NCBI RefSeq assembly: GCF_000265465.1
Contig: NC_018016.1
Location: 1,466,501 to 1,530,500 of the forward strand
Length of the DNA stretch: 64,000 nucleotides
Source: Ornithobacterium rhinotracheale DSM 15997
GTDB lineage: Bacteria > Bacteroidota > Bacteroidia > Flavobacteriales > Weeksellaceae
Reading direction: 5' to 3'
In this document: positions 24,482 through 24,965 of the stretch, piece by piece
Position numbering within the stretch: the stretch's first letter is position 1
Layout: every line of letters begins with the position of its first letter
The notes under the pieces: generated by a model
What the model saw: the letters and a program-made list of their open reading frames with translations, nothing else
Told to the model about the DNA's origin: nothing
Databases searched by the model: none
Translations under genes and position numbers: made by a program

Positions 24482-24622
24482 ATGAAACAGCGTGTGCAAC
24501 ATATAATGAATTATGATAAGTTTAACAACTTTTTCTTGTTTAGCTCGAGAAAAAGTGTAAACACACACACACACACACACACACACACACACACACACAC
24601 ACACACACAACTTATACCTTAA
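24482..24622 (+). CDS. Leader ORF in its current (short) phase, ends after a Thr-His repeat
   Basis: An ORF of 46 codons starts 10 nt after the -7 box. It reads MKQRVQHIMNYDKFNNFF, then SSRKSVN, then alternating Thr-His encoded by the (AC)24 tract. It then stops at TAA 24620-24622. Changing the repeat by +1 or -2 units would place ribosomes in the frame that is open to 24965, giving a 161- or 159-residue product. A perfect 8-bp hairpin (24528-24535 / 24549-24556) lies just before the repeat. No homologue is recognised. Whether the peptide or only its translation matters is unknown. Confidence 0.5.
   Translation: MKQRVQHIMNYDKFNNFFLFSSRKSVNTHTHTHTHTHTHTHTQLIP
24561..24608 (+). repeat. Pure dinucleotide microsatellite (AC)24
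   Basis: There are 24 uninterrupted AC units (48 bp) inside the leader ORF. Tracts of this length mutate by slipped-strand mispairing and are a hallmark of phase-variable genes in bacteria. Because the unit is 2 bp, each change shifts the reading frame. Of the three phases, only one continues into the long downstream frame. Confidence 0.97.
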
Positions 24623-24965
24623 TATAACCTGTCTATTTGCTTGTGCAAATGCTTCTTTTTCCTATTTAAAAATCAAAAATACCATTGCTAGCTTGTTGCT
24701 AGCTATACTATATTGTAAAATAAAGCCAAAGTTCCGTTTAGGAGCATTGGCTTTATGTTTATCTAAAAATAAATGTTTTTGCAGTGCCCCACACTGTAAA
24801 ATACTTCTTTTCATACACTCTCGTGGAACGAGCTTCCTAGTAGAATGTTTTTTTTCATACTTAATTTTTCTAGCTAAACAGCTAGGAAAGTTGTTATGTA
24901 ATGTTCGCTATGAGAATAGCCGACAATCGTTTTTAAGTTTTGGCCTTGCTGTGGAAATCCCCTAA
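24609..24965 (+). other. Downstream open frame (the ON-phase continuation of the leader ORF)
   Basis: The frame beginning AAC TTA TAC at 24609 has no stop for 118 codons, until TAA at 24963-24965. This is unlikely by chance in such AT-rich DNA. It has no ATG at its 5' end (the first in-frame TTG is at 24693), and upstream it is open only through the repeat to a TAA at 24558. It is therefore best seen as the continuation of the leader ORF after a repeat-length change. The predicted segment is hydrophobic and unusually cysteine-rich (KNKCFCSAPHCK). A 9-bp inverted repeat (24721-24729 / 24747-24755) lies within it. Confidence 0.5.

Follow-up and report, generated by a model that had tools for sequence, protein, structure and literature searches.

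Tract-set reading frame of the leader ORF

Upstream of a surface-protein operon of Ornithobacterium rhinotracheale DSM 15997, a leader open reading frame (ORF) runs into a long, pure AC tract, and the number of AC units probably governs whether the operon is expressed. We analyzed a stretch of 64,000 nucleotides (hereafter the window; all features described lie on its plus strand), in which the tract, (AC)24 plus a final A, or (AC)24.5 (24561-24609), is the sole long dinucleotide run. The element around it is about 500 nt long and consists of a promoter, an ATG, the AC tract, hairpins and an intrinsic terminator. A -7 promoter box of the TAnnTTTG type (TAGCTTTG, 24464-24471) with a spacing conserved across copies of the element is located 10 nt before the leader ATG (24482-24484; 9-10 nt in 16/16 copies), and the leader mRNA would be nearly leaderless. 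The tract is preceded by 26 leader codons, the same length as in other genera. In its present OFF frame the leader ORF (24482-24622) comprises 46 codons and stops at 24620-24622. One additional AC unit yields 161 residues and the loss of two units 159, both ending at the TAA at 24963-24965, and with one unit less or two more the leader stops at 24625-24627. The long (ON) frame of 118 codons plus stop (24609-24965) is thus entered only with 25, 22, ... units.

The promoter spacing, the entry of the ORF into the tract, the stop positions and the residue counts for 22, 23 and 25 units had been given in a first-pass annotation of this DNA and were all reproduced here. The annotation had also regarded the long frame as unlikely to arise by chance and dinucleotide tracts of this length as rare. 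Both views agree with our data: when 20,000 sequences were simulated with a first-order Markov model at this composition (GC 0.336), the frequency of a frame open for at least 118 codons in any of the three was 5e-5, on which grounds a chance open frame was rejected, and runs of (AC)≥10 were present in 12 of 197 genomes of the family. Beyond the annotation, we found that the TAA of the long frame sits in the loop of the terminator and that the genome holds 16 copies of the element. The terminator (24942-24986) consists of a covarying stem (24942-24980) followed by a U-tract to 24986, and some ten hairpins are found between 24630 and 24940. An Rfam search of the element gave no score near the gathering threshold.

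The first downstream gene (25065-25709) begins 100 nt past the long-frame stop and encodes a surface protein with a signal peptide (MKKTMLSLGV...VGINTDEPTATLDV) that matched no Pfam family. It is followed by a secreted protein with Fib_succ_major (FSD) and DUF5977 domains (25729-27645) and by an HU-HIG DNA-binding protein (27748-28131), both assigned with Pfam, the latter being the last gene of the probable operon. A hairpin with a T-run (28160-28194) marks its probable end, and degenerate tandem and palindromic repeats (AAACCTGCGCGGGTTTGGAGCA) are found 3' of this terminator (28207-28310). In genome G002 the site is empty and ftsX directly adjoins an AspT-type permease; leader and operon therefore form an accessory cassette.

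Copies and tract lengths across the genome

The 16 copies in the 2.40 Mb genome are 74-91% identical, with conservation that begins in the promoter and reaches to the terminator. Four further AC loci (L044-L047) have unrelated leaders built on the same plan, giving about 20 AC loci in the genome. Every copy precedes, on the strand of the genes concerned, an operon for secreted surface proteins, a gene for an HU-type DNA-binding protein, or both. The surface genes encode secreted proteins of the VGIN..P.ATLD type, which at the loci scanned often carry a Fib_succ_major or DUF5977 domain; among these, the FSD domain scored above the curated Pfam cut-off at the window locus and L036, and below it at L032 and L043. 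HU-like genes were found near most loci, judged from ORF starts and from Pfam where scanned.

No -7 box was found between terminator and gene in 15 of the 16 copies, and the leader promoter is therefore probably the sole promoter of the operon. The gap between terminator and gene is 460-1619 nt in about half of the copies. At L031-L034 and L036-L038 this interval holds a GC-richer repeated segment of 460-780 nt (GAGAAGTTCTTTGGGATTTTG...), related pieces of which occur elsewhere in the same loci, and at L038 it also holds a transposase-like ORF, recognized by eye. The leader stands directly 5' of an HU-HIG or HU-type gene at L041, L042, L044, L047-L050, L052, L053, L085, L099 and L157. Our analysis suggests that nucleoid proteins of the HU type may be phase-variable themselves, and such a protein could regulate other AC loci.

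The number of AC units is hypervariable, ranging from 4.5 to 28.5 among the 16 copies. L039 and L040 have 15.5 vs 4.5 units despite 99.2% identity over 4.6 kb, L032 and L036 have 24.5 vs 20.5, and orthologous loci in sister species carry 17.5, 11.5 and 16.5 units in one set and 22.5 and 14.5 in another. As at contingency loci, a pure, mutable tract of short units is found at the switch point and changes faster than its flanks. The long frame is currently in register in 5 of the 16 copies and 7 of the 20 AC loci, the window copy being OFF; L029, L030, L031, L034, L039 and L044 are among the loci predicted to be ON. Across sequenced alleles of AC loci with a usable start, only 15 of 104 are in the long (ON) frame, below the expected one third, and the OFF state may be favored in sequenced isolates.

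Proposed mechanism

Past the tract, one frame stays open for at least 99 codons (99-133) in all 16 copies, and the other two close within 6-21 nt (13-18 nt in the window copy). In 14 of the 16 copies the stop of the long frame lies between -36 and +24 nt from the 3' (last) stem arm of the terminator. The exceptions are L032 and L036, where a shared 1-nt insertion (TTTGTTTTC) shifts the long frame, so that it closes 74 nt short of the last arm of the terminator; these copies may be locked OFF or follow another rule. At L045 and L046 the long frame crosses the terminator and is in register with the signal peptide that the surface gene encodes, and the ON state would there yield a fused or re-initiated product.

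We consider it highly probable that the element is a phase-variable attenuator leader, in which the right frame would let ribosomes reach and disrupt the terminator and so turn the operon ON. Transcription would begin just 5' of the leader ATG, and ribosomes would read 26 codons before they enter the (AC)n tract, which encodes Thr-His in every frame. Slippage during replication in living cells would alter n. In the open frame, we infer, the ribosome crosses the hairpin-rich leader and stops in or beside the terminator, which then cannot form, and RNA polymerase would proceed into the operon of surface-protein or HU genes (ON). With either of the remaining frames, ribosomes would come off 6-21 nt past the tract, the RNA would fold, and transcription would end at about 24986 in the window copy (OFF). 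A ribosome path that controls the downstream genes is preferred over the 161-residue product because the stop of the long frame falls inside or beside a terminator that precedes a surface-protein operon. The exceptional copies L032 and L036, and the 460-1619 nt that lie between terminator and gene in about half of the copies, count against this reading.

A possible but less probable explanation is phase-variable translational coupling, by which the long leader frame would bring ribosomes to the next start codon, so that translation and not termination is switched. Such an arrangement is suggested by many relatives, in which the long frame closes 4-60 nt ahead of the following gene or overlaps it by 4 nt in ATGA (L077, L103, L107, L114, L121, L133, L140, L141, L156, L164). 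At the window locus, however, the gene lies 100 nt beyond a stop in the terminator loop, the distance is at least 460 nt in half of the copies, and the covarying terminator stands between leader stop and gene.

Selection on frame openness

An alternative is that the long frame encodes a functional, phase-variable small protein. In its favor, the open frame of 99-133 codons is conserved past the tract with many residues in common, and insertions and deletions upstream of its last third preserve the frame. The copies differ by 204 distinct substitutions, which if placed at random would give 11.5 stops in the long frame on average, and not one copy has a stop there; introduced alone into the consensus codon, 5 of these substitutions would create a stop, and in the real copies those codons carry further changes. 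Yet synonymous changes (55) show no excess over the number expected without amino-acid selection (47.9 ± 5.7), and divergence by codon position is nearly flat (0.168/0.190/0.207). These counts indicate that the openness of the frame is selected and the peptide is not, because stops are avoided while synonymous changes stay near expectation. AlphaFold predicted no confident fold for five in-frame leaders (mean pLDDT 38.4), and a Pfam search of the long frame found no family. The alignment of the post-tract protein, searched against GTDB genomes, found no relatives in any other genome, which is what a peptide under no conservation would be expected to give. Moreover, C-termini differ after frameshifts, and much of the conservation is accounted for by covariation of the hairpins. 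We therefore regard a functional small protein as improbable, and a cysteine-rich effector was rejected for want of amino-acid selection, a fold and a Pfam family.

The first-pass annotation had combined two ideas, a phase switch and a cysteine-rich product. The former stands in that the tract sets the leader frame, unit number differs among paralogues and orthologues, and the long frame is open in every copy; the 161-residue product as the point of the switch does not. Conservation of the long frame, which the annotation proposed to look for in relatives, is seen among the copies of this genome as openness free of stops (16/16), and purifying selection on amino acids was not found in them.

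RNA structure

In the attenuator reading the leader RNA would fold when ribosomes leave early; the folding z-score of the leader is -6.9. In an alignment of 14 sequences, 98.7% of cells were paired (0/500 shuffles), and nine pairs were changed on both sides, more than in nearly all shuffles and in all slid controls. Covariation is clearest in two helices, the terminator and the hairpin at 24862-24893, which is the strongest covarying one of the leader RNA with double changes in 5 of 14 pairs.

The same folding and covariation, together with the dispersal of 16 copies, would also suit a structured non-coding RNA or a mobile repeat family in which AC run and open frame are incidental, and the equivalent in O. 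hominis was termed noncoding in the passages available (PMC10353427). Stop avoidance, frame-preserving insertions and deletions and the same frame rule in unrelated leaders argue against this explanation, which we hold to be about as improbable as the small protein. An amino-acid attenuator that senses threonyl- or histidyl-tRNA as in thr/his leaders, as could be imagined from a His/Thr-rich leader peptide followed by hairpins and a terminator, is very improbable and was rejected, since the downstream genes encode surface, FSD and HU proteins and not biosynthesis, and unit number varies freely and sets the frame.

Relatives across Bacteroidota

The layout of the leader recurs in Riemerella, Bergeyella, Bacteroides, Alistipes and Prevotella. 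Leaders of unrelated sequence, both in this genome and in those of other genera, follow one frame rule: a single frame continues past the terminator or up to the gene, and two stop early. In the same genus, in Riemerella and in Bergeyella the sequence past the tract differs and the rule is kept, with two frames closing after 4-65 nt; the distance from ATG to tract is exactly 79 nt, or 67 nt in G003 and 8 nt in a short class. In the long classes the third frame extends for about 180-1060 nt, and its stop lies 4-60 nt ahead of the following gene in most loci; in G003 and Riemerella it crosses strong terminator hairpins. L100 is an exception in which all three frames close early.

At many loci of Bacteroidales the stop of the third frame and the start of the following gene overlap as ATGA; that gene can encode a fimbrillin anchor (Mfa2), a Pvc16_N contractile-injection protein, or an unknown protein. 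Since the frame there often ends at a gene start, translational coupling may be more important than antitermination in these loci. In Alistipes/Prevotellaceae, the AC leaders of L121 and L164 overlap the start of a gene for a contractile-injection-type component with a Pvc16_N domain (the domain was tested in L121), and at L095 the same gene follows 213 nt past the end of the frame. A further feature, absent from the window class, is a UGUGUGUGU loop in the last terminator that is exactly complementary to the AC tract and located 222-246 nt past it (L054-L065, L079-L085, L089, L099, L101, L111, L134, L150); pairing between tract and loop is possible.

The codons before the tract share a motif across genera, L-[VAE]-[VM]-[PSC]-x-x-[CRS]-V followed by (Thr-His)n, as recognized by eye. 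When 84,980 species genomes were scanned for GTGTAA(AC)9, 105 stretches were returned, and among the matches listed 80/80 belonged to Bacteroidota. In a sparse phylum-wide sample the element was found in its own genome only (1/395), and the system is therefore patchy. We think it somewhat more probable than an even chance that phase-variable leader ORFs form an old family common to Bacteroidota, marked by this motif and by GTGTAA(AC)n at the DNA level, in which the repeat-set frame would switch fimbriae, FSD adhesins, contractile-injection genes and HU nucleoid proteins via antitermination or translational coupling, with the tract in some genera also pairing with the UGUGUGUGU terminator loop.

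Comparison with known systems

For Bacteroidota, most of what is known of phase variation concerns DNA inversion. Our evidence points to a second, widespread system in this phylum, which is based on a dinucleotide tract, with about 20 independent switches in one genome. The ON/OFF state of each switch would be predictable from sequence, and the sets of adhesins and fimbriae in bacteria of birds, animals and the gut could therefore be predicted from long reads. We found no description of leader frame logic or AC tracts in Bacteroidota in the open-access literature. In a 2025 review, 'leader' and 'terminat' are absent and the passages on Bacteroides are mostly concerned with inversions (PMC11868660).

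Similar repeats have been noted in O. hominis, where sequences of 450 bp lie beside FSD genes and are termed noncoding (PMC10353427), together with an unspecified 'putative phase variation mechanism' (PMC13183296). Compared by description only, these repeats resemble ours in length, in repetition beside Fib_succ_major genes (here the window locus and, also above the cut-off, L036) and in suspected phase variation; they differ in being called noncoding and in that the available passages of both papers describe no mechanism. Simple-sequence contingency loci of Neisseria, Haemophilus and Helicobacter (oipA CT repeats) likewise shift the frame of a surface gene through a slippage-prone short repeat, but there the repeat lies within the surface gene, and here it lies in a separate leader ORF that would act through a terminator or coupling. 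In the trp/his/thr leader attenuators, too, the position of the ribosome on the leader controls an intrinsic terminator; their input, however, is tRNA charging, and here it would be a heritable repeat number.

The greatest likeness is to pil1 and pil3 of Streptococcus gallolyticus, where surface-structure genes are preceded by a promoter, a leader ORF that contains a variable repeat, and a terminator, and the frame sets the stop position. At pil1, when the number of GCAGA units changes, the ribosome can arrive at the terminator and the operon is turned on, as proven with chloramphenicol and mutants, and stops within the hairpin or 4 bp before it are ON, those at least 28 nt before it OFF (PMC3894217). 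The 16 copies match this spacing except L032 and L036: the repeat lies inside a predicted leader ORF behind its own promoter in 16/16, and the ON stop falls in or next to the terminator with the OFF stops well upstream in 14/16. Unlike the pentanucleotide of pil1/pil3, known from two Gram-positive loci with short leaders (PMC3894217), the repeat described here is an AC dinucleotide of Bacteroidota, present at about 20 loci per genome, with a hairpin-rich path of 340 nt past the tract, FSD/HU operons downstream and a phylum-wide leader motif. Most likely, the element works like pil1, and we do not place it in the same family.
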